A stretch of 64,000 bases of DNA from Brachycybe producta (lineage: Eukaryota; Arthropoda; Diplopoda; Playtdesmida; Andrognathidae): assembly GCA_036925085.1 (NCBI GenBank), contig JAUPFP010000126.1, positions 1-64,000 of the forward strand. The letters are read 5' to 3'. A program made the translations under genes and the position numbers. The notes below the pieces were generated by a model. The model was not told where the DNA came from. It worked only from the letters and a program-made list of their open reading frames with translations, and ran no database searches. Below, in pieces: positions 14,296 to 49,399 of the stretch. Position 1 is the stretch's first letter. Every line of letters starts with the position of its first letter.

Positions 14296-17200
14296 GCATT
14301 ATAAAACTAAATCCGGAAGTGAGTTTAGCATTAAAGGGAAAGAAACCAGTTGTTGCTCTGGAAAGCACCATCATTACTCATGGAATGCCCTATCCAGATA
14401 ATCTCAAGTGAGAGCCGATGGCTACAGATTACAAAGTATGTTGCTTATAATTTAGCAATAATTCTACAATGTTCTGTATTCAATTCAAGCACTGCCATAG
14501 AAGTGGAAGCCATCGTTAGAAGAAACAGAGCAGTTCCAGCAACGATTGCTGTTTTTCGTGGTACAATTCACGTTGGTATGTATTTCGACTAAAGCTGGGC
14601 CTCCCTAAAGTGGTGTATTTGGCAAATATTTATGAAATTATGAAATGAGCCTCAGTGCGCAGCTAGGTTTTTGACACCCTGGAGCAAAAAGATGCAGTCC
14701 GCCCCCCCCCAAAAAATTTTTTTTAAAAAGTACAAATTCATAACTAAACGAAAAATTGGGGTTTAAATTTACAGAACCTGGTTAAAAAAAAACTTTTTTT
14801 TTTACTAAAAGTGCATTTTTTTTCTGGTTGCCTTACTAATTAATACTCTCCGCAACAAAACCTCCTGTGCCCCCTCGCAGTTGCGGGGTCTGCAGCCCCA
14901 AGCTACACCCGTGATAAGCCTAGACACTCCAGAGTTTCACACGCTATGAGACGCGCTCAATTTTGAGGTTTCTAAGTTGCTCAAATGGCTCTAGCAACCA
15001 AAGTGTAATTCAAAACATTCTGAAATTATTTAATACCTGAAAGACATATAGATGATTACACATAGTGTTTCTTAAAGCTGAAAGATGTCCTTTTTTTCTA
15101 ACTACCTTAAGTTCTTCATTGACATCTTTCAGCTTCAATATAAATTTGGTGTGTTCTTTAATATGTTCTTTGGGTAAGAAGGAGTTTGGAATCATGTTTA
15201 AAATCGCCGTTTAGATGCTAGAGTTATTCGAGCAACTTTGGCACTGCAAAAAAATCGCCGTTTAGATGCTAGAGCTATTCGAGCAACTTTGGCACTGCAA
15301 AATTCACAATGTTTCATGGCATGTACGATTCTGGGGTGTCCACGACTTTCTAGGGACCTCATTTCATAACCATGTAAAAGCACGTGTAATATCAATTGCA
15401 TTATAGAAGCATGTAATAGGACTATCATAAAAGTATGGCAGTTATATTCTAGTTGTGATTATAGTAAACTATGTCATCAATCATAATCAATTCATGCCAG
15501 TATTGCAACGAATGTCATTTCTAACATTTTTTAATTACATGTGCTCCTGCATTGTTATTATAGCATATGTTATATACAGTATACACCTGCCTAATCGTTA
15601 AGAAGCTTGTGTGACGTCATTGAGTCCGATTGACGTATAATTTAGGCTTGTGCCATTTAGTCTGGTAGCAAAATTTTTCAACAATTTAAACAAAACGGTT
15701 CTTAATCAGACAAAAATGGCAACCCTAAGTTTTTTTTATCAATCCCTATGATGACACAAACTTCTTATGATGAGGCAGGTGCAGGTGCAGGTTTAAATGA
15801 GCTAAGGATGATTATATGATTGAATTAGACCAGTCATAAATATATCATACACATATATGAAAATATTTGTCATAAAAGAATGTTATGTAATTTGCTTTTG
15901 CAAATGTTGCAAAGTCATTTGCCTATCTTTAATAATTATAGACAATAAGCACAAAACATCACTTAAGTATGACTGTTTCGAATTTATGATCTTTTCTGTA
16001 ATGAGACCCTAGACGCATAACAAGTCATGTGAGAAAGGACACAATGCATTACTCTAAAGGGTCGATTCACACTATCCAGTCAAAGCGGAGTCTGGAAGAC
16101 TATGATAGAGATTTTCAACTGAAATCCAAATGCATTTAGAAAATCGGCGTTTAGACTCGCAACCACACTCACAGCATGATTTTCCACAGAAAAATTTGAA
16201 CAAACCATGACGGTACTTGCCAAATACACAACTCATGTAAGGCTAGCTTAACCAAATCCACCAGGCGGTAAAGTTATAATTCTATAATTTAGGCTTAGAA
16301 GAATCTTTGTTAAAATGTCTGGCTCAAGAGAAGGAAACCATCAAGATATCGAGAAGAGATCTAAGTGTTGCAATAGCTAAAGTAAAAGCCTTTAATCTGA
16401 TTTTACATAATATATAGAGAAAAAAATTACCATTTCTTTATTGTTCACGATTATGATACAGAAGTACAGCGGAGGTACAACAGTGTCCGCAACAATGTTA
16501 GTGGCTCATAAAGTTGGCATTCAAGTATTTGTGACTGGAGGAGTCGGAGGCGTTCACCGTGGAGCAAATGAAAGTGAGATTATTTTGCAAACATACTCGA
16601 GTGTTGAATCTTTGCATGTTTAAGGTGGTGCATCAAACAGGGGCGGCCCTAAGGAGTAAAAAAAAAACCATTAAAATGCCTAGAACTCCACCCCATTTAA
16701 ATGCGATGATAAATTTCACTTGGTTCTAATTTTCATTTTTGCCTAAAATAAGCCAAAATGAAAGTTTTCGAAAAAATTTCATTTTATGGTAGAGGTTAGC
16801 CTTAGTTGGTTTTATATCGAATGATAAGTTGATAACATTTATGATAAATTCAATCAGAAAATCGCATTTCTCTTCTACTCTTAATATGGAGATACTGTAG
16901 ATATTGACTGACAATGAATCTATATTTTGAAATCTTCAGTGGTCAATAAAAGTCTCATTACAAAAAATCACCAAAATGTGAGTTATGATGTCTATGTTTG
17001 GGTTGTTGGATCGGGAGAGCGCAACATAGACTAAAGCTGACCATGAGAAGTAACCGATTCATTTAAATTTAATAAAATTCTGACGTGTTTAAACGTTTTT
17101 GTTGTTGTTTGTACAGCGTTATACACAGGCAGACAAAGCTTATATATATAATAACAATCGTCTAAATTATAGTTTCCGATATTCTTTCCTACATAGGTAT

Positions 17201-20200
17201 GGATATCAGCAGCGACTTAACCGAGCTCAGCAGAACTCCGGTTGCAGTCGTATCTTCCGGAATCAAATCCATCCTAGACATTGAAAAGACACTACAATAT
17301 TTGGTGAGATGCAAAGCACCATCAAATAAAACCTCTTAATAACATATAATCCTATATAATATACAAGTAAATAAAAGAAAAATGCTAATTTTTCTAATAA
17401 TTTTGTGTCCTGTTTGTTCGATATACCTTTATAATAGGAAACACAAGGCGTGTGCGTCCTCAGCTATGGACCAACAAAACAATTTCCATCATTTTTCGCT
17501 GTTAAAAGTGGTTACGAAGCGCCACACAATGTGGAAACTCCGCAGGCAGCTGCAAACATAATCTGTAAATATACAAACACAATTACAATTAATAAAATGA
17601 ACAAGTGTTTTCATGTTGGTTTTGCTACGTGCAAATGTTTTATTTTCGAGCAGCAAAGTGGTGTGAGTTTGGTGGCAACAGTGGTATCTTGTTGGCGGTT
17701 CCTCCGCCCGAAGACGAAGCGGTCGACGGAGCAATCGTAGAAACAGCAATCTGTGATGCTGTTGAAGAAGCAAGGTTGAATTAATCTATCTACATTTAAG
17801 ACAAGAAAATAAATTTTCTAGAGAAGAAAAAAAAAAAAGACAAAACATCAAAAACTTAACTCTTTTTCGATAAATTCAGGAAATTAAAAATAACAGGAAA
17901 CAATGTGACGCCTTTTTTACTTGCAAGAGTAAATGAACTTACACATGGCAAATCTTTAAAAGCTAGTATCCTTTTTTTCTTTTCTTGTTGCTTTACATTT
18001 TATTTGAATAAATCTAGCAACAACGACAACAATAACAAAATACTAAAACTTAACATAAAACGTAGACATGGCGCTGATTAAAAATAATGCGGACATCGGA
18101 AGCCAGATTGCAGTCAAGTTGGCTGAAGGAGGTCGGAAATAATTAACTTCGCCCACTCGGCAATCATGAGTTATTTATGGCTATTTTTAACCAGTTTCAA
18201 TCAATTCATCACTTATCTAGGAAACAAACAAAATCGGTATTTATCTTCAAGCAACAATCTTACTAAAGAAACTTCAACTGTGAACAGACCAGTAAGTAAC
18301 AATTTACATAAAGATAATTTAAGACAACTAAAGCATGTTTTCCCCCACTGTGATTATATGCATCAACTACATACAGGGTTGGGAAAAAATCATTATTACA
18401 TTTGAGCATTGGTTCAATCCTGATTGAACGTGTGCACAATATTATTGTGCGGTTGTTCAATTGTATTGAGCGAAAATTATTTTGCGAAGAATTAGATGCC
18501 TGTAGTCGCAGCTGTTGCAGGTGTAAAATTGAGTTAGTGATCATGTTTAGAATTAAAAAAGTATAATTATTTCGTGTAAAAAATAGCAAAGATTATTAAA
18601 GAATACGATATATATGTATTATGATATTCACAGTCTGTAAGGGTTGATTGTGTGGGTATAATTAATTAATTCCCTTGCCTAAAAAAACTCCAGTGAGGCA
18701 AAATAATTATTTAAATTATTTATTTAATATAACAAAACAAATAAAATGTATTAATATTAACAGCTGTTTAGTTTACAAAATATGAATAAATAATGGCATT
18801 TAAAAATATGATTAAATAACCAACAAAATACAAATGGAATTTCTTGCACATGGTCAAAAGGAAGTACAACTTCAACTCCAAAATGAAGTTAAACATGAAG
18901 TTAGGGTGTTCATGGAGTAGATTTCATGCAATACCAGATGATATGAAGTTAGATTATGAGATGCTGCTTAGGATGAAAGATGGTTGAAAATTGTTCATAC
19001 TATGCTGACATAGATGAACAGTTGAAAATATAGTTCACACATTGATGACTATTATAAAGCACAAAAGGCTACACAATAATGATGGTGTAATGATGTACAC
19101 CATGATGAAACAAAAGCAGTAAATAGTTCCTGCACTGATGGTTTTAAAAAGATGAATCTGGCCCACTACTTAACTGGCACCCTCACAGACTTCCAGAAGC
19201 AAGAATGAGTAAAAAAGAAGAAAATCCCAGCTCTTTATATACACTGGAACTAACCAAGAATGTTACCATGTGACCAACAGAAAAACATTCCAAAAGTAAA
19301 ATATTCAAAGGTTACAAATTAAATTATTACCTCACTGGAATTTGATTATGTCATAGTTATTCATGACACATGCCCCCTCTTTATTTCTAATTACATAATT
19401 GGAATTTATGACCTCACAAGTCTATTCATAATATCTAAGAACACTGAAATTCAAGCACTTGTAAAAAGTTGAATTGGTGTCTATTACTACATTTACATGA
19501 GAGAAATTAGTACAGCAAATCTTTTAGAGCTCTAGATAATAAATAAGTTGGATAACTTCATATGTAAACAGTTGAAAAAAGTAGGTAAACGAAAAAAAGC
19601 GCTATCATAATGGTTTTAGGTGGGGTTTTTTTTTGAAAAAAGCGACAAAAATCATTGCTCCCCAAATCAATTTTTGTCATGTGTTTGAATGTCAACCTAA
19701 TTTAGTAGATGCCTATAAACACTTCAAGAATTAGTAGTTTAATTTTATGTCGTTAAAAGTTTAGTGATTAATTTCTCTCATGTAAACGTAGTATATGTCG
19801 CATCCATTTGGCATAATTGTCCATTACACAAAATGTATGTCCATTTTCACGAAATGGACATAAATTGGTCTGATGAAAAACGCGAAATGAATGCGATATA
19901 CATGTATATGGTTGAGTTGTGTATTGTCTCTCTGGCGCGTCAACCAATTCGCACAACCCCAAGTTCTTGCAAAGTGCATTTAGCAATTAAAAAACGTTTC
20001 AGTTGTTGAATTTAAAATGGAATCCCTCCAAGTTTCCTTATCGAATTTGAATCTTAACCGTCAACCAATTTACAAATTTACGTAGTGATAAGTTGCACTG
20101 CCAAGTAGACAATCAAATTACAATTACTGCATAATAGTTCATTTTAAACTTTTAATCACAGTGGTACTCTGTGGCTATATTATCTATTAATATGGATTAT

Positions 20201-23478: not shown

Positions 23479-23497
23479 CCAATACAACCTGTCAGAA

Positions 23498-24420: not shown

Positions 24421-25533
24421 TTATGTATGCGTCATTTCCTTCAACTCCACGTCATTGTTGTTGCCATTCGAACTAGTCTTCTTGTCAAACAGAAGTAAAT
24501 GATTGACCGAAGGATCCGTCAAAGAGTTTAAATGATGTCCGAGATTGTCGATGGTGACACTATTCTTATGTTGGCTGCTTGGCGAATGCAATCCCAAAGA
24601 CATAAGTTCGGGGAAGGCTGGCATGTCGCTCTGTAACACTTTAATCTTCTGTATCATCTCTTTAATCTCATAACGTAAGATACCTAAGAAACATAACTTT
24701 AGGAAGGCAATAACGCAGTAGCCCAGCACAAAGAGTACGTCGGCACTGTGCTGCATCCAGTTCTGAATGGCACCGACACATCCTTCGACAGCAACCCTTT
24801 CGACAGACTGCAAAGATGAGGAAGACTGGACACACGACACTTCAGACATCTGTTCCAATGACGATGAAGAATAAGGCCCATTAGAGGAGGATAAGGAAGA
24901 GGAAAAGGAGGTGGTGGTGGTGAAGCTATCACTACGGTTACTATTAGCATTTTGATAAACGACTTTTGTTTCCGGATTAAAGTCTGCTTCAAAGTCTATA
25001 GACACGCAGCAGCTGCTTGGCACAAACGAAGATCCGTTGGCCATCAGAAGTGCCCACCGAGTACCGTTATAGTCTCTCGGACTATGAACACCGCAACATT
25101 GCATCTGTTGTTGCAGTTGATCCCAATCGGCTGTAAACCGCGGATTGTGTCCGTAATCGTCTTGAAGACGAGCCCACAGTGAAACGGGCAAACTGTGTGT
25201 GATACTGTTGAAGAAGAAAATCCATACGACACCAACTAAGATATCACCGACAAGAAGAAACAAAATACTCAGCCAGTAAACGTTTAACCATTTTTCATTT
25301 AAGCGCAAAGCACCATAACATCCGATGGCCTGAAGTAGTCCAGCCTGAGCCAAAAGTGCCAGATAGGCATAAATGAACGTCGGATGATACATTGGAACTG
25401 GCACAAATTTAGATCGTAAATCTGTAAGCACAACTGTAGCCGTGATGACAAAGATTACAACGCCCAAAAACAGCACGACATTGCAAGTGTAAATCCATAG
25501 ACGGTAATACCTCATAGCTTTCTGGAGGAGCAT
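24421..25533 (-). CDS. Tetraspanin, intronless frame of 370 residues
   Basis: A four-pass membrane scaffold protein. Predicted membrane helices lie at residues about 12-36, 52-76, 84-108 and 264-288. Between helices 3 and 4 is a large extracellular loop with the defining CCG motif at 146-148, a second Cys pair in SSCC (175-176), and single Cys at 234 and 252. These would form the usual disulphides. The loop carries a Ser/Thr/Asn-rich insert (about 196-245), longer than in most family members, and several N-x-S/T sites. The cytosolic tail is about 80 residues and ends ELKEMTHT. I start it at MLLQKAMRYYRLW because the helix-1 context begins there. The frame stays open upstream to 25887, but that part is a translated trinucleotide repeat (His and Trp/Arg runs). 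The subfamily is not assigned. Confidence 0.92.
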   Translation of the reverse strand: MLLQKAMRYYRLWIYTCNVVLFLGVVIFVITATVVLTDLRSKFVPVPMYHPTFIYAYLALLAQAGLLQAIGCYGALRLNEKWLNVYWLSILFLLVGDILVGVVWIFFFNSITHSLPVSLWARLQDDYGHNPRFTADWDQLQQQMQCCGVHSPRDYNGTRWALLMANGSSFVPSSCCVSIDFEADFNPETKVVYQNANSNRSDSFTTTTSFSSSLSSSNGPYSSSSLEQMSEVSCVQSSSSLQSVERVAVEGCVGAIQNWMQHSADVLFVLGYCVIAFLKLCFLGILRYEIKEMIQKIKVLQSDMPAFPELMSLGLHSPSSQHKNSVTIDNLGHHLNSLTDPSVNHLLLFDKKTSSNGNNNDVELKEMTHT

Positions 25534-26286
25534 GGGGATGGGGCTGCGTCTTCTCCTCCACCACCACCACCGCCGAAGCCGACACCCACCACACCAACTC
25601 CACCACCCCAACGTTTCACCCCTGTGGTCCGGGGGTAGAGGACCACTGCTGCCTCCGTCTTCGTCTGTCTCGATTATCGTTTCACTGTGACGACGGTGGT
25701 GGTGGTGGTGGTGGTGATGATGATGATGATGGTGAGCCTGATGCTGGTGGTGGAGGAAAGAAAACTTAATAAGAAGATTTATAAAACGTGAAGTCAACTC
25801 GTAAAGTCTTTGGAACCGAATGGTTTGACCGCAGTTGGGAGACACGGTTGTAGATTTATGTTGGACACCACAATAAAGGATGACCACGATTAAAGAATAA
25901 CTTTAAATTACAAATCAATCATCTATCGAAATAGAATTTTGAAGACTTGAGAGTTTTGCCGGACCAAAAAATGTTACCCAAAGTGTTAAAAAGATAATTA
26001 ATTGCAAGGCACTTGACACAGTGATTTCACTAGAAATATAAACTAGAATAAGAAATATGCAGAAATTATTTATATTTTTTCTTGGCTAAATTTCAGTAGA
26101 TGTGTTTATGTAGACGTTTTTACTAAAGAGATGTCATAACAACAAAAGTTCTTCATATCAAAGTGAAGTGGAATTCAAACCCGTATTAAATTATAATTAA
26201 TGTGAATGACAGCTGGTTTTAAGAAGGTTGGGATCAAACTTTGTTGTCCGCATATTGAAGACATTCTTGTGTTGAACACATCCGAT
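25534..26286. other. 5' region of the tetraspanin gene
   Basis: On the minus strand the frame is open from 25887 and includes a 13-His run encoded by the GGT/GAT trinucleotide repeat, then WWSW and RRWWWWRRRR. This looks like translated low complexity in a 5' leader, but an N-terminal extension cannot be excluded. Beyond 25887 is ordinary AT-rich DNA. Confidence 0.5.
25694..25755. repeat. GGT/GAT trinucleotide microsatellite
   Basis: (GGT)n followed by (GAT)n and again GGTGGTGG on the plus strand. It lies in the open frame upstream of the tetraspanin start, where it reads as His on the minus strand. A second CCACCACCAC run lies at 25557-25570. Confidence 0.9.
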
Positions 26287-26550: not shown

Positions 26551-28632
26551 TATTTTACAGTTATAATCGGTATGAGAAACAAAACAAAAACCAAACTGAA
26601 AAATCGTGCAAAAGAATAGAAATTCAGACAGAGTAACAACTCAAGCAACACAAATGACGAACACAATGAAAAAGTACAAAACGAAAGTGAATGCGGTTTG
26701 AAATCTTCAAGTAAAATTAGTTTTCAGGCAACGTCAAGCTAAAACTTCGACAGTTTCTAAATAAAATTCGACCTTGGCCGTAGACTTAAAAGAATATTGG
26801 CAAAGAGCAAGCTAAAAACAAACCTGTTTTCTATATTTAAACAAATATGTGAAGTAATATTCGGTATTATACAGCATCCAACTTTGGTACACATGTTTTT
26901 CTTCAATTGGAAAACATGTTTATTTTTATATGTAGGCCTAAGTATGCATGCACCCGTGCATATGAGACTATTTCTATTGCAAAAGTTCTTTTTTCTTTCA
27001 AAAATATGTTTTTCTAACAACATTTTATGAATGCATTACATCCAAACATCCAAAACCAGCTTTACACGGACTACTTTGTGGAGCTTCTTTGCGGTACTAC
27101 AAAGTGGTTGACATGGCTTACGTTGCTTGATTCACACAGACCATTACATAAAACAATTTACCTGCTTTCAGTACGGGACGCTGGTATGACCACTTTATCA
27201 TCATCCAAAAAAAGGTGGTGGTCGCCACTTGTAACAGGACTCAACCACTCAATCGTATCTTTATTGCAAAAAAGAACAGTGGTAGTGGATAGTGTCAACA
27301 CCCCTAAGTGTTATCAATGATCTAATAAAACGACCACTTTATGTGTTGCCACAAAGTGTTCTGTGTGAGCCAGCCTTAGAAAGATTCATTGGGTGCTTGA
27401 GCACCAGAGCGCACCCATGCAGAAACTAATTTTAGCTGATGCTCCGTGCAAAGCCAGCCTAATAGGTGTTCAGCACCCCTAGTAATTTTCTTTAATTTTA
27501 ACATTTTTGCCAATTTTATACTAGCCATTCGCAGAATCAAAATACCTGGGTTTTTTTAACACTGTGCATTGAATTTGAGCGCTAAACAGTTTGGGCACAC
27601 AACTGAATGACGTCACATAAAATAGTGTGGTTAACACGATAGCCTCTAACAAGCAACACCTCACGCTATTATCAAAAGATACCATGTGGTATATTTCGTG
27701 GAGCCCTCACCACGAATCAGCGGCAAAATTTCATCCAGGTTCAGAGATACCCATGTTTAACACAAACCTACTTTTAAAAAATATGCATACCTGAAAATTG
27801 AAACTAATTACGTGCACACTAAATCCGAAACCATACAATTTCATTTCATGCAAATATTTTGCGGTTAATTAGGCAGAATGCAAAAATAGCAAACAATTTC
27901 TACAAAAAGTTTATTAATAGAAGAAAGAAGTAAAAAAAATTGTTAAAAAAAGTTAATCAAAAATGTACCCACATAACAATACAATAACAACAACAACAAT
28001 AACAGAAATAACTTGAATAATAACTAGTTCAGTTTACCCGTCACAAAAGGCCTATCGTTGTTTCTTTGCCAACGTTATTACGGATAGTCAAGAAAGTGCA
28101 ATTCGTTCGCTTCTACCTGCAAAAAAAAAAGAAAGGAAGAATTTATAATGACTGTTTACTCGCATTCACCGACACACACAAGTCAGTGAATTGCAATTAT
28201 CAATTTACTACATTCATAATTAATAAGCAAACAAATGTTTTCTTCCAAATGGTTTTATATGAAAGAAAATCTTACAAGTTCATCGATCTTTGTAAAGAAA
28301 GCGGCTTCTCAACGTAGCTACCTCCTGACTGTTGCAAAATTCTCACTTATCAAACAAATTATGTGCTCTTGAAAATTAATTTAGAATTTGGGCATTTGGG
28401 TCTCTACTCTTCAATTTTACTTGCAAAATGTGTTGTGTGTTAATTATGACCTACTGCAGACATTATAATATTGTAATTATGCATTTTATTTAGAATCTTT
28501 TATTGAAAGATGATGAAAATGTAAAAATACAATGAACATGTTGAAGGCCTATAATGAGAGATTCGAATGGCAAATGAGAATTTTTTTTTACTTAAATCAG
28601 GACCTCATTTTTTTGTAAATTTAATTATAAAC
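26551..28632. other. Gene-free region with one inverted-repeat stretch
   Basis: AT-rich DNA. At about 27055-27376 weakly inverted ends (ACTACTTTGTGG and CCACAAAGTG) bound about 320 bp rich in CACTTT/AAAGTG motifs, probably an old MITE. A TGACGTCA palindrome stands alone at 27608-27615. No coding exon was recognised. Confidence 0.5.
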
Positions 28633-28992
28633 TAGTGGGGTAACCCGTCATAAATGACGGGAGCAAAATTCACAGGCAATTGTGCGCATGCGCGTCGTTT
28701 TTTTCCTTTTTTTACTCCTTTCATTTCAATTTCAGTCACCCCCTCCCCCTTTTTTCCTCCCTCCTCGTTTCTCTCTCCTCCCTCCTCGTTTCTCTCTCCT
28801 CCCTACTCTTTCCAACCTTTTCCCCCCTCTCCAATTTAATATCATGTGGTTCTTAGATGGGAAGAGTTCAACATATAGTTGACCTTGAGAAAAAAAAGCA
28901 GTTCATTTATTCAAATTTATATAAATTTTGACACAGCGTTAATTCCCTCACACACACACACACACACACAGACCTGGGATATTATATATATA
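28633..28992. mobile_element. Possible Helitron- or retroposon-like element
   Basis: It starts near ACTAGTGGGGTAACCCGTCA. An 8-bp perfect stem follows (CCCGTCAT / ATGACGGG around AA, at about 28647-28664), then TC-rich repeats. It ends with a (CA)11 microsatellite at 28949-28970 and GACCTGGGATATTATATATA. The CTAGT edge, GC-rich short hairpin and microsatellite tail recall non-autonomous Helitrons or retroposons, but neither end is proven. Confidence 0.35.
28755..28806. repeat. 21-bp TC-rich tandem repeat
   Basis: About two and a half copies of CCTCCCTCCTCGTTTCTCTCT in a pyrimidine-rich strand, inside the element above. Confidence 0.75.
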
Positions 28993-31029: not shown

Positions 31030-32752
31030 AAAACGCCCACACTCCAAGCCATTTTAATAAATGACATTATTTATAGATACAACCCAATAGCAACAGTGTA
31101 GTAGAGACTCCAACATTGACGGATGTATTTTTATTGGTAGCAAAATCTACAGCTCGACATAAAATAGAAATTCGTCCTATTCTCCAAAACACAGATCTAC
31201 AGCACCACAAGTCATACACTGTCCTATACATTGAAACCAAAAGAATTGATACCGGCAAACAAAATACATTTAATATGTCCACATCCAAAAAAAAATACAT
31301 AAGTAGGTCCAACAATGTTGTGTCAACTAGGAGTAGCACAAAATATCAAACAAACTTATGATAAATGCAATATTGATCATGTAGATTCTAATCTGTATTG
31401 TTTGTGATTGGCTATAAGCCTTCTATCGCTGAATTTTGTTGTATTGAAGGTAGAGCAGGTCTTACTTTTGATGGTTATGTCAAATGTTGGAACCAATACA
31501 GTTTTATTTAGACATACACGATCTAACTTTTTGGTTTTAACAATGTTAATTCCAATAAATCAGATCGTGTATGTCCACCAGTATACAGTATGTTGCAATT
31601 GGTGGCAAGTGGCCTTTTGCCATACTTGACAACAAATTATTGAGTAATGTTGACCCTCTCATTTATAATTTACAGTAATGTATTACAATATTTAAAAATA
31701 GTTAGTGGTTCATCATATTCGTTATTAGCATTGTGAAAGTATCACGTGCAAGTCATTTATAAGTTAAATTATAATACAGTACCCTTAACCAAATATTATT
31801 TCGCCTAGCAATCGCTTGTCCTCCTAATAATTATTATCAATTTACTTGTTTAATTCATCTTCCTAAGTGTAAGAGTAACTGGAGTCGTTCCTAAGTGATT
31901 CCTGATTGCATAAAGTAATATAGTAAACCCAAAGGCTATATATAATAATAGAAATGTTTTTGGCTGTTTATAAAATGCGGCCTCCCTCCTATCAAATACA
32001 AAGCATATTTGGAAATGACTCTAGAGAGTATAGGCTTGCCTCAATATCTGTCATGAAAGCCACCGGCACTGTGTAGGTGTGTATATGTGTCACAATGTAT
32101 CCTATGTATTTCTATGTGTGTCTCACGCATGTGGATTTTTTCGTGCGTTTGTTGTTGCTTGCTTGCCTTTCAATTTTCTTTTAAAAATCTCTCATCAATT
32201 CTTCAGTCCATTTCAAGTTGAATACCTTATCGATTACTTGCGAGTTAACTGCCTTATCACACGCCAAACTTTTACCTCCTTTTAAATGACAACTACGGTG
32301 TACTAGGGGCGTACACAATGAAGTACTTACTGATGTTATTTTCAGAAAGTTAACATTAGCCTGGATAAATAATGTTGGTGCTGTGATAAGATCTACAATA
32401 TTTACAAACTCATTTGCAAAAAAAAAAAAATTTAATAACTCTGTGTTCATGTACTATATCATCTTTACCTCAAACTCAATTAATTCAACTTTTCTTATCA
32501 TAAGTTTGAGGGCTGAGTTGGATCATCTTTTATCCATTCATGTCTCATAAAAGTTTCAGAAAAAAAACGCTCATCTTTGAAGCTTATCCGAGTCTTTCGA
32601 AAGCAGCAACAAAACCCTTCACATAACGTTTCCAAAAGCAACTTTTAAGGCCTGATGCACACCATCAAGTAATGCAACAGAATGCAAGAATGTTACTTCC
32701 TGCACATGTGAACAATACAGCTAGTAACTATGCTGTTACTGTATTATACAGT
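31030..32752. other. Gene-free region
   Basis: AT-rich DNA without supported exons. A block at about 32648-32750 (AAGGCCTGATGCACACCATC) resembles the element end at 55431, showing it is repeat-derived. Confidence 0.5.
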
Positions 32753-33323
32753 ATGTAGTTGCCTCACCGTAAGATGAAGCTTGTGACGTCAGATCGGTAG
32801 TCAAAAAAATTAGGCTTGTGCCATTTTGTCTTATAGAACGATATTAGTAACCACTCTTGAGAAAACACGAGCGTAAGAAAGATTTTTCACATTTACATAC
32901 TCGTATTTTGTAATTTTGGGTCATTTGTAGTCCTACATGAGGTGATTTACTTCCAGAGGAGATTGTACACGAGGAACATTTTGATTTAGGGAATTTATAG
33001 AGGTGCTACTGAACAAGGCATATGATATGCTAATGCTGCTATTCAACTCAATATTTTATTTGTATGGGGAATTGTTACAGCAGGCGATAGTTCATTTTGA
33101 CAATGCATTTGTATGATGCTTTTGGACTAAATGATCCCTCTGCCACAGGCCCTCTGGGCTGTTTGCAGAGTAACTATTCAAATTCAAAATCAAACAAAAA
33201 GAATGCAAGAACCGTTTTCTTTAAACTGTTGAAAACATTAATTTTGCTATCATAAACACAATCCTAAATGAATGGACCAATTCATCTGACGTCACAAGCT
33301 TTATCTTATGGCGAGACAGCTAT
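32753..33323. mobile_element. CRE-bearing MITE, copy 2
   Basis: Long inverted ends: TAGTTGCCTCACCGTAAGAT followed by GAAGCTTGTGACGTCAGAT on the left, and ATCTGACGTCACAAGCTTTA followed by TCTTATGGCGAGACAGCTAT on the right. Perfect TGACGTCA words lie at 32784-32791 and 33287-33294. The interior (CTCTGCCACAGGCCCTCTGG and the ATTCAACTCAATATTTTATT region) is shared with about 38340-38640. Length is about 570 bp, without transposase. Confidence 0.85.
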
Positions 33324-33664
33324 ACCTCATGGTGTGAACTTGGTCTAATTACTTGCTTTGTTGTCTAAACGTGTTATCCTAGCAAGGTGGTCCAATTTTT
33401 ATTTCCTGATTTCTCTTTTTAGCACATAAATGAAAGTGTCATTCATTTATGTGTCTTTCCTCCTCATTTTCTTACTGTATAACAGAAATTCTTTAAGCAC
33501 AGGCGACGACACACCTCCAAATTCTCACACAGAAAAACTATTTCTCTCAGAAGAGCCACAAATGCAATGTGACACAATTAAGTCTCCTTTTTGTCATTTT
33601 CTTATTAACTGAGATCCTGGCAACGCAGACACGCCCTCCCCCTCGACACACATAAGATATACCA

Positions 33665-33675
<11 letters not shown>

Positions 33676-33728
<53 letters not shown>
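33676..33728. repeat. (AT)n microsatellite
   Basis: About 26 uninterrupted AT dinucleotides, preceded by CAACAACAACA. Confidence 0.98.
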
Positions 33729-33729
<1 letters not shown>

Positions 33730-35769
33730 TAGACAAATGAATGTCTAAATATTAATGAACGTTATTCCAGTCAACTAAAAAAATGGAAAAAGAAACCCTA
33801 GTAAAAAAAATAGTAACAACCAGGGAAATGTGTTTGCACGCAAAATAAAGACATTAGACTGGATCAAAGAACGTACCATTAGACTTACATGTTTAATGAA
33901 ATCGAACAGAAATAACAATTGAAACCGCTGAAGTTTCTGGTTACAAACACCAACAGCATTTCAAATTATGTTGGGTCAATTTTTATGATTGTTTTGTATT
34001 ATAGAAGATGGAGTTCAATGAAAAAGCGTGAAGGTCAGAATTTGAAACATCTGCTACTCATGTGAGATAACAAATATTGAAAATGACACAATTTTGAAAT
34101 AATTAAATTGACCATAGAATCGGTGTTTATTATTCAAATCAAATAGAACTTTTCAAGAAATAATATTTTTAATTCCGGGATATATTTTAAAAAGAATGAA
34201 ATTTACAACACTTTGATTACATTTTTAAGTTCTAGAATTATATAAAGAAACAATCAACTAGTCAAGAATTTTGAATAATATTTCTTTATAAAAGAACAGA
34301 AATTTGTGTCGATATTCGAGTTGTGGAATTGAATACAAACCATGTATCAAAGACAAACTCAAACCCAAAGTGTCATTATTACTATTAATAAATTCCATTT
34401 TTGCACACCCGTCGCCTCCTCCCACTACCGCTCCCTCATGAGAAACCAACAAATGTCAATTTCTAATTTTAGTTCACATTTATTCCCCACCTCCAATGAC
34501 AAGAGTATCAAACACAATTACTGAATTTAATATGCATAACAAAAAAAAACAGAAAATGAGTAGCAAACTGCATGAGAAGTCGATTCCAAAAATTCAATCA
34601 AATCGAGAGGGAATTAAAAGTCAATATCATATGAGGTTGGTGGTGGTTATCATGAGCAAACAGTTCCAACATGAATCAAATTTGCATATGTCAGGGCCAC
34701 ATAATATTAGGCTGTATTTACGAATTTCAAGTAACGCCTAGAAATATCCCTCATTTGCATAAGGTTCTTTCTATCTAAGCCACGGGTCTCAAACAGGAAG
34801 CTCACAAAATCCACTTACTGATTTTCTTTTCTTTCAGAATTTTCTTGAATTTTAGTTTTTTTTTTTTGTAATTTTGAAAAGTTAGTGTAAATATTGCCAA
34901 ATATTCAGCACTACTGAGACCTTGTTAAGACTAAAGCCTAGTACACACCGGGCGATAACTGCCGGGCACACGTAAACAGCGACTTAACAACATTTTCGTC
35001 AGACACAGCAACCTGTATTTGAATACATGGTCCAAGTGATGTTGCTCGTACAAACCGAATTCTGCTCGCCGAATTCAGTATCTGTTGTTCACTTACATGC
35101 AATAATAATTCACAACGAAAATGCGAAAATGAATTTCATTAACCCTTCACAATGAAATCCTTTGTCGCTTGTTCGATTCTAGGTACAGACATACTGAGCG
35201 ATGTTTTTCACTTAAAGTGGAAAACAGAAACAAGTAACATACTTTGATGTCAAGCTTTATACCCGCACTATAGGCTTTGCATTTCGCCATTATTGCATAA
35301 AAGTTGGCCAATAAATATTTTTTTTTTTTATTTTCTGTCCACACTATACCAACATGTTTCTAACAACATTTCACACAGAATATATTTTACCAAAGTGGAA
35401 AAATAAAACATTCTACAAATCCACAAGTCCATTTGCAAAATCATCAATTCGATATAGTAAGTCTGCACACTGACTAGCATTTTAGGCAATGTATAATATG
35501 TCTAAAACAACAAGTCTGTCTAAAATAAATTGAATTATTTAGGCATCATCGAAATTGGCTTATTGATATAGTGATTTTGCATCATGAGCCACAAGTTTGT
35601 ACAAAATGCACCAAATGGAAAATCACGGTTCCAGCCCATTTTGGATGCATTGCGATATCATATAAGTGTAATCTACAATGTATGCAATAATAATTAGTTT
35701 AATAAAAATAAAGAAAAAGGCACGATTTACATACCATAATTTTGAAAAGTAGCATAACATTGCATAATT
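33729..35769. other. Gene-free AT-rich region
   Basis: No supported exon. Short open frames at 34258-34741 are AT-rich and overlap on both strands, as expected by chance. At about 34935-35090 a stretch beginning AGCCTAGTACACACCGGGCG resembles the ends of the element at 55429. Confidence 0.5.
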
Positions 35770-36780
35770 TCAGTTATTTCTGTGACGAGGCTGGCCCTTT
35801 AGCACCGCCCGTTTGGGGTGTTGTGGGCTGTGGACCAGCCCCTGATTTTACTGGTTGCGACATCTTGCATTGGCCAGGTCACTTTTACCGAGCACTAGTC
35901 TTTCGACGAACAGTTAAATCCTTAAAAAGCCCACAAAAAGACGTTGTCTCTTTAGGCCAGGGCCGGCAGTGGCCCTCCTTGCTTCTGAGGGTCTTCGGGA
36001 CACTCAGCCCTGTCCTGGGAATCTTTTGTACAGTTGCATAACCACTCCAATGGTCCTGTGGTCCTCTTTAATCGGTTTGAAGGTGCCAAGCAAAAGGACT
36101 CAGAAGGTTTCAGAGTGCCTTCGCTAGTGACAAGAACTGTTGGCTAAAGTTCCTCTTTTCATTATCCCCTCTAGAGGGGAAGAAGACACACAACAGTTTG
36201 AGATAGAAAAGTTCTCTTTACTTTTTATAACATTTCTATTAGATTTACATAATTGTGCATATACAATTGGTGATACAATTCTTGATTAAACACTTAGAGT
36301 ATAACATTGGTTCTAAGTTCAGAATTACTCGTCGAATTCTCTACTCGCATTCTCTCCTTGATCAGAAATTCTCTAGATCGAACTCTACCTCTGAACTCTC
36401 TTAAACTGAAACTGTCTCATACTGAACTGTCCTCAAACATAAGTGGCACGGCACTTTCGTTCGGTCTCAAGGGAGGGGCGACTGTCACCTCAGGGCTCAA
36501 TGAGTGGCCAACTGGGCCAATCATTGCCCTGGGCCTGAAGTATTACCTTTTAAGAAAAGACATTTTTGGGACTCTTTTCCCAATTTCTCATGGTTCTTCT
36601 GGGTTCCTCGAATTCAATAAGAATTCAGGCCACCCAAGTCTGGACATCTGTGCACCATGGGGTGCCATACTGAAAGAAAGGAATTTCTATGGGGTGTTCC
36701 ACAAATATGCAGATACATTGTGTCACATTTCTTTAAATAACACTTTTGTTCACAAAAATATTCTACAAACTGTTTTATAA
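35770..36780 (-). mobile_element. Probable LTR-retroelement remnant
   Basis: A 1-kb island of clearly higher G+C than its flanks. Read on the minus strand, it has a promoter-like C/G-rich block near 36470, a run of GAGAG/CAGTTT-type motifs (36300-36430) and a pyrimidine-rich TGTGTGTCTTCTTCCCCTCT block at about 36175-36195. It is followed by more G+C-rich leader-like sequence. This order resembles U3-R-U5 of a solo LTR plus leader. Plus-strand open frames (35742-36041 and 36307-36780) have no recognisable domain. No second LTR or reverse transcriptase was seen. Confidence 0.35.
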
Positions 36781-39700
36781 ACCAAATAGTTTTGCTATTA
36801 CATTTCCTATTATTATTTCTGATGATTTTGGTTAAAATTGCTTCAGTAATTTAATTTAATTTGCTATATAATATACATTTTTTTAATATTTTGCATAAAA
36901 CTGCACAAAATTATTTTAAACAATTTGCACACTTCTGAATTTATAATTACATCCAACATTTTGGCCTTAATCATGATCTTTCTGAAGTTGACAGATGCAG
37001 TAGTCCGTCCATTGTGTCCAACAAACAACTGTACACATAGAATATGTCAACGATCCATCTGTCACACACATCTGTCAATTTCTGACTCACAAAAAATACA
37101 CATACCGCAGCATGTGTTACTGCGCATTATACTGTGTTCCACTGTCACACAATGCACATACAAATACATTGGTAGTAATTTCAATGTAAAAGTATCCCAA
37201 ACAAGTTTGCATTAAAAAAATGAGTTCTGAAACTAAAATCTGAGTGATTGATTTAAAAGACAAAATTGAACCCATCTGCAATCTGAATTTTCCACAAGTT
37301 TAAGCAGAAAATGGGTATTTAAAAAACCCTTTGGTTTTTTTTTTCTTCTTCAAATTCCATCTCCTACAGTGCAGGAAACCACTTCAATTTAAATTCACTG
37401 CGTGTCTTGGCAGTCGACTCCTAATTGTATTTTCAACGCCAAACGTTAGTTAAGCTTTTGGGAATATAACCCTCCCTCCCACATCTCTCTTACTAACCAC
37501 TACCACCCCGTTTTACTATTTTCATCTACGTTTTTAACGCAAAATTCATTTTAACCCCATGGATAAAGAAATTTGTTCTCCAATGCTGTGTTTGTATTGA
37601 AGTATTTCAAAAGCTACACGCATACAAACACACACGATTGGATAAAAGTGCATTTTGCAATCGAGTTAGTAAGCAGAAAAACAAGCTCTAAGTTCCTCTT
37701 AACAAAATTATTAAGTTTTTCCAATAATCTTACTTAAGATTAGACGTGGAAAGGAAATAAAATTATTGTACTAATATAGATATATAAAAAAAACCAATCA
37801 TGAAGATTTGAGTGTGTTTGGCAGTTCACATAAAAGGAGCTGTTGTTTCCAGAACTATACATGGTTATGGTACATTTACTTTGTCCTAAAATAATACCTG
37901 TCTTAACAATGTACTTGGGTCTTTTTTTTTTCTATGTTTTTTTTGGCAATAGGCCCAAGTATTTCAGAGATCCTCATGTGAACCATTGGAATAGATAGAT
38001 GGGTTTGGTTAAATATCAGAAAGAAAGAAAGAAGAAAAAAAAGACTACACACAGATTATGGTGGAAAAATGGCTAGAAGCTTGTTAAAGAAATGAACGAC
38101 ATAAAAGTCTGGGGTGTGGCTACGAACGTTGTGTTGAATTTGAGGACGGTAGAGTTTTTATTTCGTAGACTTATTAGTTTGGTGTCTTTTTATTTTATAG
38201 TTGGGACGTGGCACAACTAAGTAGGATATGTATAAATTGCACATACAAGGTGTTTTTAAAACATGTCAACATTTTGGCATTTAATTCCTGCTTGGAAACC
38301 CAAACCTACTTCGGCAAAGCATACATGTATATATAATTCGGAGTGATCAGGTAACCACCCTAAGAAAATAAGAGTTTTTTTGCACGTACAAACGCGTATT
38401 TGTGGGTCATTTGTTTCTATGGTGATTCGACATTAGAATTTACTTCGAGAGGAGAGGGTGCTATTAAACAACACATATTGTGTATACTAATGCTACCATT
38501 CAACTCAATAATATATTTGAATTGGGAATTGTTATACATTAGTAGGTGACAGAAGTTTATTTTGACAATGCTGCTTTTGGACTACACGGTGCCTCTGCCA
38601 CAGTTCCTCTGGGCTACTTGCACAGTAATTATTCAAATTTAAAGACGCCGACAACCTTTTGCAATAAAAACCAATAAAAAGTGGTTCTTGTGCCCACGCC
38701 CTTCAGGAAGAAATACATCGACACTTTACTGACCAGCATGTGTTTCCATTGGCTCGATCTTCGGCCAAGGTGGCATTCTAGGTAGACGAAAGCGTCCTAT
38801 TGCGTTGTTTTGTGACATATGCTAAGCTACTGTATATGCTAAAAGGCCTACAAGAATAAATGTTTAGTATGATTATGTGTCTATTTTTTTATATAGAACT
38901 AAAAAAATTCTCTTACGGAGCTGTTGACGTATGTGTATTGATTGATATATGTTTGTATATAGACGTACATGGTGGATGGGTTTTTATTTAAATAAAAAAA
39001 ATCGATTTGTTTGATTTAAATCGGATATTTTTTTATTCAAATTAGACTTTTTTTTAAAGAAACAAAAAAACAAAAATATAAATTAAACATAAAAACAATA
39101 CTAACATTATTTGGATGTTTTTTATTCATTTTTTATCTAATAAATTAGTTTTTGTAGCATTAATTTTAACAAAAGAAACAACAAAGAATAACTTTAGAAA
39201 TAAGATTAAAACATATCTAATATTAGTTTTCATTAAAATAAAACAAAGTACGAAAACATAAGCAAAAAAATGGTTCACACACACACAGAAAATAATTCTA
39301 AAGACAAAAAATGTCATCTAATTTGAATAATTCTATTCTATTTATCGGGAGCTGAATTTCTGCAGTAACAAAAACGACGAACTTGTTTCTTTTTGACACA
39401 CGGAATTACATGGAATCGACCAATAGAAACGTGTTTTTCAGACGCATTATTCTTTAATGGCTCTCTGCCTTATAGTTTTTTCTCTCTTTTATAAAGTCAA
39501 CAGTGTGTTTATGTTTTTATGTTGTAATGATGCATAAGAACTCTTGCATTTCTATTTCTATTTTCTGCTTGTTTTTCAGCATGTGTGAACTACTCTTAAA
39601 ACTACTACGAATAACCAATAGACTAAAAATAAATTATTTTCTTCAGTAATATAAAGCGTTGCTTGAAATAATTTTTAAAGATGATACAAGACAAAACTGT

Positions 39701-41356: not shown

Positions 41357-41364
41357 TTCTAAAG

Positions 41365-42673: not shown

Positions 42674-42895
42674 AAGATGATGAATCTCATCGGATAAGAA
42701 GAAGAAAAAAACGCAGAAAAAAGAAACCAAAAAAAAGAAACCTTTCAGAAAAATTAAAATAAAAAAAATACTTTTGTAACTAATTTTCAACAAAAAAAAC
42801 GACACTTTCTATTAACAAGATTCAAAAACTAAATTTAGCTCTTGAAATCTCTCAACAATGTTCAAAGACAGAAAACAAAAACCTATTTTATTAAA

Positions 42896-43250
42896 TGATA
42901 GTTTATGAATAGCTCATTTTTTAACTCTGGAATATTCTGTCTTTTTTTTTTTTTTAAAAAACTGCTTATTCTTGTCTTTCAGGGGGCAAAATTAAGAGAA
43001 ACTAGAAAGTATTTTAGAAACTGAAAGAGTAACTCCATCCAACTTAATTGTATTTTCATGTTGATATCTTTCGAAATAAACTTTGTATCGGCGAAAATTT
43101 GAAACTCAATTGTCTGCTTAAGTTGGGTCATTTTTAAGCTCACATAAAAAGTTTATATATCAAGATGAAATTATTCTTAAGTGACTGCGCTACACTTCTA
43201 GTTATTAAATCACATTTAAGTTTTTCTTCATTATGGCTCTTGAAGGCCAA
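42896..43250. mobile_element. Palindromic ACTAGAAG-family MITE, copy 2
   Basis: It begins GATAGTTTATGAATAGCTCA and contains GAGAAACTAGAAAGTATTTT and TTTTCATGTTGATATCTTTC, as in the copy at 30659. The inverted second half follows (CACTTCTAGTTATTAAATCA). A T-run interrupts the left half. Confidence 0.7.
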
Positions 43251-44369
43251 AATAGGAGAGTTTGTAATAAATTTGTATCCATGAACAGATTTTATTTTTA
43301 ATATGTTGGAACCCGGCTTAGAGGGTTTATAGTAAGTCGAATTTCAAGTGCAAAGTTTTCGTCTTGAATTTCGTAAGCACTGGGCATGCAAGATAATAAT
43401 GTGTATGTTAATGGTACAAGTCAAATTAGTTATCGATCAAAAAATGTCCATGGTTGTTAATTATAAAAGCTAATATGATTTCTATGAAGACTAATTATTA
43501 AAAAGTAACTTGAGTTACAGCAATTTTGTGGTAACAAAAAAACAAAACAATTGACGACAGATGACAGCCTCCAGTCATCAGGTTCATGTTTTTCATTTGA
43601 CCAATGGTGAAACCGACTTAATGTTTTAATAGAAAATATAATGTAAATGGAATATTCTTTTTCCTCCCATTTTCAGTGAGTTAGTTGGATGACACTTTTT
43701 TATTTAACTATTCTATCTTAACAGACTTTTTTTTTACTAAGAGAAAAAACAAAACAGTACAAACACACATTTTAAGCCACGTTCTTCTTCTTTACCCTCA
43801 ATTCCAACCTTTCAAACTTGTGCCTTCTTCATTGATTTACTCAGTTTTGATCATCCGGAAAATTGGCTTGATGTTCACTGGGATTTATTTTTGAAAACAG
43901 ATAAGAGATTGAGAGAGGGAAGAATGAACTCTCAAGAGACTGAATGAGTGGGAATGACAAGGACTGACTTAAAAGACAAGAATAAGAAGCAACCAATGTC
44001 GAGTTTACTAGAGAAACACAGAGAAAATAATGGGTTAAAAGTGGGCCCCTTTGGCTACAAATATTTATGTTTTAGTTTGTTGCAAAGACTTGTATGACCA
44101 TCATCAAACACAGTGACCATTGAACGAATGAAACCAGATTATTAGCACATGCGCCCTGAAAATTTGTACAGTAGAAAAGTGGAACACAAGAGTAGTAAAT
44201 CCATTGAAAGTTTTATTAGTGGCCCACATTAAGAGTTTACTCCGTTTACTATAGTGTTATTTTAAGGCTCAATTGATAGTTGCTTAAAATACAAATCTCA
44301 TACAGGATCACTAAAAAAGGATGTCGAATTTAAATTTAAAAAATGTCTACGCAAGCAGTCAAGAAGATC

Positions 44370-44474
44370 TGTGGCAGAGGGACAAAAGTACAATTGCAGC
44401 ATGTGAAATGCATTGTCAAAACCCAAAAATTTATAAAATCTTTGGGTTTTGACAATACATTTCACATGCTGCAA
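44370..44474. repeat. Near-perfect 34-bp hairpin
   Basis: Arms 44394-44427 and 44441-44474 pair over 34 positions with a single mismatch around a 13-base AT-rich loop. Left arm start: TTGCAGCATGTGAAATGCAT. The preceding GTGGCAGAGGGACA is shared with 22210 and, inverted, with 33135 and 38595, so the hairpin belongs to a dispersed repeat. As RNA it would form a microRNA-precursor-sized stem. Confidence 0.9.
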
Positions 44475-44599
44475 CAATCTGTTCTGATGCAGCAGCTATC
44501 ATAATGTATTATCAGAAAATTAAAAGATAGATTTGAAATGATAAACTAAAGACAGCGCAACAACACTAAGAGCTGAGGCTTTCACACAAAAAGTAACGG

Positions 44600-44830
44600 A
44601 CTGATTACAGAAAAGTCATGAAATTGTGAAAATCAACTTTATGATTTCATTCCTTGTGCTCAATTATTTTATTATGCTGTAGCACTAGTCAATGGCAGTC
44701 ATAAGACAATATTTGTCATAATATTTTATAATTTGCTTTTGTGACTGTTCATGAGCTATATATTTACTGTAATATGATAGTATTATATTTCTGTAATGAT
44801 CCCACTAGTGTGTATTTCATCTATAGACAA
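44600..44830. repeat. Dispersed repeat, TTTGTCATAA family
   Basis: It shares ordered blocks with about 54895-55115 and about 15816-16010: CAATGGCAGTCATAAGACAA, ATATTTGTCATAATATTTTA, TTGCTTTTGTGACTGTTCAT and TTTCTGTAATGA. Coding frames are absent. It is probably an old MITE family with at least three copies in the window. Confidence 0.7.
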
Positions 44831-44867
44831 AGGTTTACCTGCTTACTGAAAGTAATGTTACAAGAAA

Positions 44868-45090
44868 CGCAAAAGTTGGTTAGAAACTAGAAGAGTTCAA
44901 AAATAACGTCATAGTAGTACTCATATTTTCAAAATATACAGCAGTCTGAAAAAGACCTAATTTGAACTTATTCTTCAAAGTTAACAATCAAGAATTAATG
45001 CACTAAGCCATTTACAAACAACCATTTTAACAGACACCATCATGATTCATGAAATTACTTTTAAGTTATTCCTTTAATCTTCTAGTTTCA
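44868..45090. mobile_element. Palindromic ACTAGAAG-family MITE, short copy
   Basis: GGTTAGAAACTAGAAGAGTT on the left and TTTAATCTTCTAGTTTCAAA on the right, in inverted order. The middle has lost most of the family consensus. Confidence 0.55.
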
Positions 45091-45889
45091 AAACAAATCG
45101 TGAATTTTCTTCTACTGTAAAAATGAAATTTATGAAATCCAAAATTGAAATGTACATCTCTTAAACTTTTATGAAGAACTGGTCAAGTTCACATTTTGCC
45201 ATGACCAATTAATCCATAAAAGAACTAATGATTATAATGACATACAAGACAATCTCTTATAATCAAACAGCCACTTCTCTCTTGTTTGTCTAATCAATAA
45301 ATACGAGTACATTTTGGCTCAAAAATCCTCAGCTTCTTTCATCGATTTCCCCCCCCCCTCTCTCTTCATATATATTATATACATCAACGTTCACTCCCAT
45401 TCATATGAAGAATCTGTCAGCATAACCACCTCCCCCCTGTCCATTACAAGAACAAAAAACTACACAACAAAAACAAAACCACCTAAGATTTGATGATTAA
45501 GGTGTATTCGTGACTCATCTTTCAACTACAGGTCAAGGACCAATCTAGTCTGCATAAAACGCACCTATTTTTAATTATGCATAGTGTATATAAATACACA
45601 CACATATATGAGTTAATAAGCATTATTTCTCTTCGAACATAATTGGCTTTATACATTTATATACAAGAAACAACGAAGCAAAAAAAATCGATAAGAATCA
45701 CCAGCTGATATATGATGATGATGATGCTTTGCTCTTGATGCAATTCCTTTTTTTTCTCTCTCCCTTCAGACACACAACACACACTTTGATGCCTCCTCAA
45801 TTAAGTGAAAGGCAAGAACAACTGAACAGTTCATCCATCATTATAACCACTAACACTTTCTGTGAAAAATTCTAGTAAAAAGGGTAACC

Positions 45890-45986
45890 CCCCTCCCCAC
45901 CACCACCACCACCACCACCACCACCACTGATGGGAGTGTGGTGGGCCACCACCGCCACTGATGGGTGTGTGGTGGGCCACCACCGC
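45890..45986. repeat. CCA microsatellite and 31-bp tandem duplication
   Basis: (CCA)n at about 45898-45926 is followed by two adjacent 31-bp copies starting at 45925 and 45956 (CACTGATGGGAGTGTGGTGG, second copy with T for A). Each contains the palindrome-like GTGGTGGGCCACCAC. Confidence 0.9.
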
Positions 45987-46410
45987 CACAACCAGCAACC
46001 ACCAACCATTCACCTAACTTTTTTTTTTAAAAACAAAAAGCTTCTAATAATTACTCTTCCTATATTATTCATTTTCATCAGATGTATTGTGTGATTGCCG
46101 ACCTCAAGGGGCACCACCTAGTCTAGCAACAACAATAACACTCATTGTTACAGACATTCAGTACCATGTCAAATACAAACAAACATTTAAACACTAATTT
46201 TCAACTTAAATTAGGAGGGCAAAAAAATATATATAGAAAAGTTTAATGAGGCATCACTAAACGTGTGTGTGTTTATGACGCCTCTTCTAATATAAGAAAA
46301 CAGTTTTGAGTTGTTCAACTTTTGAGGAATATAATAACACTGATGGCTCAAATAAAACGTCTGAACGGTTTAAAGATGACTATCTCATACGATATAACTC
46401 TATCTACACA

Positions 46411-46508
46411 ACATTCTTTTATTTATCGATTTATTCAACAATGTGACATCGCATCAGATATATGCGGTGACATCACACTACTGGATAAATCGATGAATAA
46501 AAGAATGT
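46411..46508. repeat. Inverted repeat, 25-bp arms
   Basis: Arms 46411-46435 (ACATTCTTTTATTTATCGAT...) and 46484-46508 (...CGATGAATAAAAGAATGT) pair with two mismatches around a 48-base interior. It may be a tiny MITE. The overlapping 69-residue plus-strand frame is explained by it. Confidence 0.8.
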
Positions 46509-46762
46509 GCAGTATGCTTTTCTTTGTATAAGCATTATCAATCAAGCAATACTAAGTGTCGTCAATGTTAAAAAAATAATGGAGGTGTTGGATACATTAA
46601 TAATTCATTTTTTATTTCATCATTTTATATATTATGGTATAAGATTAATTATTGATAAATTCTGTTAAATGAGTATTTATATGAAATCAAAATTGAATTA
46701 ATAAGTATCAACAACCATCCATTCATTATTGATATGAAGACAGCTTTTTAATTTTAGAGTAT

Positions 46763-46996
46763 AGTTGTCTAATCGTAAAAGGAAGCTTGTGACGTCAGAG
46801 GGTTTGACAAAAAAATTGGATCGTGTCATTTAGTCTAATGAAAAAGTGATGATAGTAAACGGTTTCAACAGTTTAAACAAAAAGGTTCTTCCATTATTTA
46901 GTTATTACTCCTTTATTATCTGACAAAATGAGACAAAGGCTGAGTTTTTTTGTCAACGCCTCTGACGTCACAAGCTTCATCGTACAGTGAGGCAAG
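46763..46996. mobile_element. CRE-bearing MITE, copy 3
   Basis: About 235 bp. The left end GTTGTCTAATCGTAAAAGGA followed by AGCTTGTGACGTCAGAGGG is mirrored on the right by CGCCTCTGACGTCACAAGCT followed by TCATCGTACAGTGAGGCAAG. Perfect TGACGTCA words lie at 46790-46797 and 46963-46970. It is the shortest and best-preserved member. Confidence 0.88.
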
Positions 46997-49346: not shown

Positions 49347-49399
49347 TTAATTTTAACAACAATTCAATCTACATAAAATTAATTTTCATTTGAAAGAAT

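Follow-up and report, generated by a model that had tools for sequence, protein, structure and literature searches.

In Brassicaceae, binding sites of the transcription factor E2F have been amplified by miniature inverted-repeat transposable elements (MITEs) and Helitrons (Henaff et al., 2014, as cited in the review PMC12595863), and extracts of that review place about 85% of E2F motifs in transposons (PMC12595863). For the cyclic AMP response element (CRE), extracts of one article describe CREB as recognising both the half and the full site, and a title in its reference list states that CpG methylation in the CRE abolishes binding (PMC7532970); an extract of another reports that 22% of human promoters in the top 1% for CREB binding have the full CRE, versus 3% of those in the bottom 90% (PMC2774331). 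For the haemoglobin genes of the clam Lucina pectinata, the part of the source available mentions promoters and introns that contain MITE-like elements, as well as a predicted site for CREB (PMC4732748). Here we analysed a 64,000-nucleotide stretch of the Brachycybe producta genome (contig JAUPFP010000126.1, positions 1 to 64,000; hereafter the window), which holds three copies of a repeat family, MITE1, whose consensus carries one perfect CRE, TGACGTCA (hereafter the word), in each end repeat. Among the literature matches listed, which comprised titles and the starts of abstracts, no CRE-bearing MITE family was found, and this does not prove that none has been described.

By exact count the window contains eight words (at 15612, 27608, 32784, 33287, 46790, 46963, 47260, and 52296), five of which fall in three inverted-repeat elements and three elsewhere. 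A first-pass annotation had proposed this arrangement of three elements with five perfect words in their terminal repeats and three further words, and both the count and a search for inverted arms bear it out. The elements and their words are as follows, with no strand assigned.

15584..15781: MITE1 copy 1, about 198 bp, with arms 15584-15596/15769-15781 and 15599-15612/15754-15767
15612..15619: the word in the left end of copy 1, exact match
32756..33322: MITE1 copy 2, about 567 bp, with a longer interior and 39-nt arms that are 87% complementary
32784..32791: the word in the left end of copy 2, exact match
33287..33294: the word in the right end of copy 2, exact match
46760..47000: MITE1 copy 3, about 241 bp, of typical length, with 56-nt arms that are 80% complementary
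46790..46797: the word in the left end of copy 3, exact match
46963..46970: the word in the right end of copy 3, exact match

The three elements had also been thought to share their end sequence. This holds for copies 2 and 3, which together have all four exact AAGCTTGTGACGTCA sites of the window, but not for copy 1, whose left end reads AAGCTTGTGTGACGTCA, two bases longer than AAGCTTGTGACGTCA and with the word intact, and whose right end reads TGATGACACAAACTT, in which the word has decayed and is lost. Likewise, the estimate that fewer than one word would be expected by chance in the window was right (100 dinucleotide shuffles gave a mean of 0.38 and a maximum of 3), but the genome-wide density is 7.7 words per 64 kb, so eight in the window is about average.

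As had been supposed, MITE1 is a repeat family scattered over the genome, and both of its ends carry the word. In the genome of 295.3 Mb and 442 contigs, the single genome on which the whole study rests, exact AAGCTTGTGACGTCA occurs at 1,604 sites (799 plus 805), and its reversed control at none. With copy 3 as the genome query, 40 of 1,416 first-look candidates were scored, copy 3 itself included, and the other 39 of these best-matching places are 74-83% identical to it. Thirty loci, including the window copy, align as a near-palindrome of about 240 bp with ends TATA[G/C][T/C]TGCCTCA, in which the word lies about 27-34 bases inside each tip. The family thus has the inverted end repeats, short length, and many dispersed copies of a MITE. 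Flanks are unrelated among the aligned copies, except for larger shared repeats (L019-L022, L092/L093, and L094/L106). TATA is frequent at both ends. The flanks of 32 copies showed no target duplication beyond TA/TATA, identity between them not reaching significance at any of the offsets and lengths tried; judged from these ends, MITE1 is likely a TA-type transposon.

Four long inverted pairs of 4-6 kb (L039-L042) were read as candidates for an autonomous MITE1, and none of them fits. Three consist of host gene pieces lying between separate short elements, and the eight open reading frames (ORFs) scanned from three pairs gave pieces of UNC-79, TrmO, and ELL or nothing, with no transposase; the fourth, L040, has a single ORF of 80 amino acids and none longer. 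An autonomous copy was therefore not found in these four pairs, and no search aimed at a transposase was made. In one of the pairs (L039:5060-5105) two MITE1-type end words stand inverted with just 30 bases between them, which may reflect the collapse or rearrangement of an element.

The word decays much more slowly than the rest of the end repeat. Copies were sought with the MITE1 interior alone (window 46816-46944), so they were not chosen by the word. Among the best 40 of 461 candidates, 34 were read (20 new and 14 from the search with copy 3), while six places, the window copy and five others, were left unread; two rows were then dropped (L093, a duplicate of L092, and L106, with the same flanks as L094), leaving 32 copies. 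Rates were counted only on end-repeat bases outside the query region. Changes affect 30 of 512 word bases (0.059) and 550 of the 2,525 other end-repeat bases outside the query (0.218), a ratio of 0.27 (bootstrap 95% interval 0.13-0.41), or 0.37 (0.18-0.57) when variable positions are left out and 66 of 80 are kept. The two word positions are the best-conserved two among 82 eight-base windows of the end repeats. Intact words are present at 45 of 64 ends (22 left and 23 right), where the neighbouring rate predicts 14-25%. The outer block CCTCATC/GATGAGG, 16-22 bases outside the word, shows 132 changes in 440 bases, so conservation is higher in the word than further out in the end repeat. Some windows inside the query region are kept even better (for example GTTTAAAC, 0.82 intact), and bases there were selected for similarity. 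Because of this low relative rate and the top rank of its positions, the MITE1 word is under constraint of some kind; it is conserved beyond its flanks, a comparison that the first-pass annotation had proposed, and does not decay at the neutral rate, which that annotation had named as part of a refutation.

The explanation we favour, tentatively and at a little less than even chances, is a transposon-borne amplification of a CREB/ATF site that is kept by selection at the level of the element, with binding predicted. The three elements would be copies of a non-autonomous DNA transposon with a CRE in each end repeat, and CREB/ATF-type bZIP proteins would bind the word as a genuine high-affinity site, which would be kept in MITE1 since binding benefits the element, possibly by opening chromatin or by aiding mobilisation in germ cells. 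Each insertion would then deliver one or two CREs to a new location as a by-product; most MITE1 copies probably have no activity, and the host may make use of a minority. The amplification itself is directly visible, in that the site stands in the MITE1 consensus and has been multiplied by transposition.

Three other explanations bear on the slow decay. The first, that the founder held the word by luck and nothing maintains it, is disfavoured and seems improbable to us. A 240-bp sequence holds the word with roughly 0.2% probability, word-based sampling finds any such family, and the CpG decay products TGATGTCA/TGACATCA do occur, at 4 of 64 MITE1 ends, but the decay is far below the neighbouring rate despite the CpG in the word. 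The second is host selection after insertion, by which words are kept in many copies as regulatory CREs. The copy tree is near star-like, with terminal branches making up 92% of its length (33 copies), which places much of the decay difference on copy-specific branches as such exaptation would predict; however, the high retention in copies selected neither by position nor by word is too broad for individual exaptation, and this explanation, too, seems improbable to us. The third, which is the main and strongest rival, holds that the transposase itself recognises the end repeat some 27-34 bases from the tip, with the word as the core of that binding site and its likeness to a CRE incidental; retention would then reflect constraint on mobilisable source copies. 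We regard this as quite possible. Elements of the Tc1/mariner type usually have subterminal transposase sites, and the word is in both end repeats and about equally retained in each (intact in 22 and 23 of 32); the much lower conservation of the outer end-repeat bases argues against it.

The word is in great excess across the genome, where it occurs 35,739 times and the reversed palindrome control ACTGCAGT 7,349 times. Single-mismatch neighbours average 4,223 for the word and 4,882 for the control, which puts the word 8.5-fold and the control 1.5-fold above them. A dinucleotide expectation, derived from window and locus sequence totalling 168 kb and scaled to the genome, is about 2,700, making the excess about 13-fold. 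This 168-kb stretch is biased upward, much of it lying near MITE1 copies; it holds 45 word sites versus 1.5 expected, the top ratio among 256 eight-base palindromes. Most single-mismatch neighbours are near expectation there, and TGATGTCA and TGACATCA, the forms produced by CpG decay, are elevated (20 versus 7.4). The word was also considered as the most over-represented 8-mer and is only third by z-score (35) among non-simple 8-mers, outranked by GCTCCGCC and CTCCGCCC, both pieces of a second family, MITE2.

This excess is not owed to MITE1 alone. Two samples of word sites, both from contig C1, were classified: sample A comprises 58 consecutive sites at 13-372 kb, and sample B 54 sites in three consecutive runs at 3.0-9.1 Mb. 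Sample A contains 4 sites in MITE1, 2 in MITE2 or the related MITE3, 4 in repeats of other kinds, and 48 outside all recognised repeats; the corresponding numbers in sample B are 3, 22, 4, and 25. The last class, 73 of 112 sites in all, means sequence without a long match among the sequences compared (a few have short ones), so that old or rare repeats may be among it. Genome-wide, the full AAGCTTGTGACGTCA tag is kept at 19 of the 45 intact words of the conservation sample, and the 1,604 exact tags thus extrapolate to about 3,800 intact MITE1 words; the share of MITE1 in all words ranges from about 4.5% by exact tag to 11% by extrapolation, and the exact tags of the three MITEs jointly account for at most 31%. 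The proposal that MITE spread scatters CREB/ATF-type words therefore stands as regards dispersal, but MITE1 supplies only a minor share, MITE2/3 supply more, and most sampled words lie outside recognised repeats. Clusters of five words within about 240-320 bp were seen at L033:753-1072 and at contig C1:900546-900785.

MITE2 is about 207 bp long and starts with CAGGCAATTAGAAA (example L123:63-269), and MITE3 is about 142 bp long and starts with CAGGCAATTGTGCCC (example L141:65-206). Both have the ends CAGGCAATT and usually one word per copy. Target duplications of 9 bp mark them as another kind of transposon than MITE1, since 15 of 30 end pairs match at at least 7 of 9 positions and shuffles average 0.9. 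Exact tags number 7,217 for MITE2 and 2,212 for MITE3 (reversed controls, 1 and 2), amounting to about 9,400 words, more than MITE1 supplies. The best 40 MITE2 copies are 98-100% identical over an 86-base query and, judged by this identity, many MITE2 copies are young. In the two examples the word lies 85-90 bases from one end, at the inner edge of the long inverted repeat. The occurrence of the identical 8-mer in an unrelated MITE group, and away from its tip, argues against a transposase site, and would count for the favoured explanation of a CREB/ATF site amplified by transposons.

Words outside repeats differ from those of MITE1 in their flanks. RTGACGTCAY is an extended preference of the CRE, not a strict requirement, and this form is present at 52 of the 73 sampled non-repeat sites (33 in sample A and 19 in sample B) versus 25% by chance (binomial P about 1e-16, with paired sites not fully independent). 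MITE1 flanks are not shifted to RTGACGTCAY, which speaks against exaptation, and the lack of these flanks is a point for the transposase site. CpG-rich surroundings were considered as a general mark of non-repeat words and rejected, the observed/expected ratio being 1.29 in sample A and 0.71 in sample B.

Host genes were sampled through one family, Ras, taking 1.1 kb before the domain start of the 33 among 129 Ras-family matches that begin at profile position 1-2, that is, upstream of recognised first exons rather than mapped promoters. These 33 upstream regions contain 18 words, where genome density predicts 4.4, and 10 of the RTGACGTCAY form versus 1.5. After dropping L169, which duplicates L168, 32 genes (35.2 kb) have 15 words versus 4.26 expected, 9 of them of the RTGACGTCAY form versus 1.5; at least one word is found upstream of 10 of 32 genes (P 0.004), and at least one of the extended form upstream of 8 of 32 (P 7e-5). 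The control ACTGCAGT was absent from the full 36.3 kb, where 0.9 was expected. The enrichment of the same 8-mer upstream of host genes is a further point against a transposase site. Three of the 15 words are MITE-borne or look so, one in a MITE2 copy (L161) and two in L168 that are MITE1-like by eye. For exaptation this means that one of 32 genes has a MITE1-like word pair, and another a MITE2 copy, at most 1.1 kb upstream; host-gene use of individual MITE1 copies is possible. L168 (C39) and L169 (C90) have three identical TGACGTCA contexts upstream of Ras-family genes and, from this identity, appear to have arisen by recent duplication or to represent uncollapsed haplotypes.

Exact TGACGTCA and a CREB-type bZIP exon are both present in the genome. 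Among 13 bZIP matches, one exon is identical to human CREB1 (PDB) at 43 of 48 residues, and another is Jun-like. Together, the Ras-upstream enrichment, the RTGACGTCAY flanks of non-repeat words, and the CREB-type bZIP exon suggest that the word is relevant to the host.

Several observations weigh against the favoured CREB/ATF explanation. The slow decay cannot be assigned to CREB over a transposase. Losses at the two ends are correlated, with both words kept in 20, neither in 7, and only one in 5 of 32 copies (Fisher P 0.001), a pattern that suggests sublineages spreading without the word, which may therefore not be strictly required. The base after GTGACGTCA at 27 MITE1 left ends is G in 17, T in 6, A in 3, and C in 1, and the usual form of the MITE1 word, GTGACGTCAG/T/A, does not have the RTGACGTCAY flanks of the sampled non-repeat sites, which somewhat favours the transposase rival. 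Genome-wide, RTGACGTCAY makes up 12,385 of 35,739 words (35%), no more than the mirrored control YACTGCAGTR (2,926 of 7,349, 40%); the flank argument accordingly comes from the 73 sampled sites alone. We attribute the lower genome-wide share to MITE words that mostly lack the form.

A wider version of the CREB/ATF explanation would treat the perfect CRE as a genome-scale docking word, with several thousand or more host sites, many of them near gene starts, which TA-type transposons and those with 9-bp duplications have independently adopted and keep because CREB/ATF binding aids moving or inserting in the germ line. We hold this to be unlikely; if true, transposons and host would share, and compete for, one transcription factor. 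Should CREB/ATF binding itself be real, recruitment of host factors for transposon mobility would become testable, as would the effect of thousands of decoy or spare CREs on cAMP-responsive gene control.

The remaining features of the window are the following.

14479..14580, plus strand: exon stretch of a pseudouridine-glycosidase-like gene (Indigoidine_A profile 28-61)
16423..16575, plus strand: the following exon stretch recognised in that gene (profile 78-128)
about 17199-17303 and 17438-17569, plus strand: further stretches of the same gene (profile match)
24421-25902, minus strand: tetraspanin ORF
27608..27615, no strand: lone word of the form ATGACGTCAC, outside recognised repeats, about 1.7 kb upstream of the tetraspanin ORF
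47260..47267, no strand: lone word of the form ATGACGTCAC, with a 29-bp weak similarity to a word-bearing stretch of locus L041
52296..52303, no strand: lone word of the form CTGACGTCAC, exact match

As the first-pass annotation had noted, one element has inserted into an intron, since the exon stretches of the pseudouridine-glycosidase-like gene at 14479..14580 and 16423..16575 flank copy 1. Pfam searches of both strands of 28001-37999 and 43001-52999 returned nothing above the cut-off and one weak PRIMA1 match (17.8 versus 38.6 bits). Animal genes (tetraspanin, UNC-79, and ELL) are present in the window and related loci. Positions 1-13900 of the window include a purine-rich tandem repeat of about 12 kb with extreme strand bias, of GAAAGGAT type, and GACACAAAATGGCGGC-type repeats precede about 13900. 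Elsewhere in the genome, a mitochondrial-type COX1 translates sensibly under the invertebrate code, AGA being read as serine at positions judged by eye. Large contigs also contain long COX1 copies (C1:12697416-12698753, L086, and C17:4027703-4029047) that are probably nuclear copies of mitochondrial DNA, and an intact-looking COX1 lies on the last contig, C442.

Compared with known transposon groups, MITE1 resembles Tc1/mariner-type MITEs with TA targets, such as Stowaway, in being short, palindromic, and of high copy number, with TATA ends and no longer target duplication detectable, whereas its own Tc1/mariner membership is putative. MITE2/3, but not MITE1, are like Mutator-like element (MULE) MITEs in their long end repeats and 9-bp target duplications, the latter being linked to MULEs. 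With the classical CRE, the MITE1 word shares the exact TGACGTCA and its CpG core, and the CREB-type bZIP exon would supply a candidate binding protein. In Lucina pectinata, as far as the source extract goes, the CREB prediction concerns promoters rather than element ends, and there is no genome-wide amplification (PMC4732748). Unusual here is that two structurally unrelated MITE groups have an identical perfect CRE, with several-fold slower decay in one of them, which provides a countable animal case of transposons multiplying one transcription-factor site. As in the Brassicaceae E2F system, to the extent that the review extracts describe it, short DNA transposons of several superfamilies carry one factor's word and hold a large genomic share of it, and the function of most copies is doubtful. 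In contrast to that system, the site is a CRE, the host is an animal, the three exact MITE tags account for no more than 31% of words, and most sampled words (73 of 112) are outside recognised repeats. Among the described cases considered here, E2F-site amplification in Brassicaceae is the closest to MITE1, the same kind of phenomenon with another factor and in an animal.

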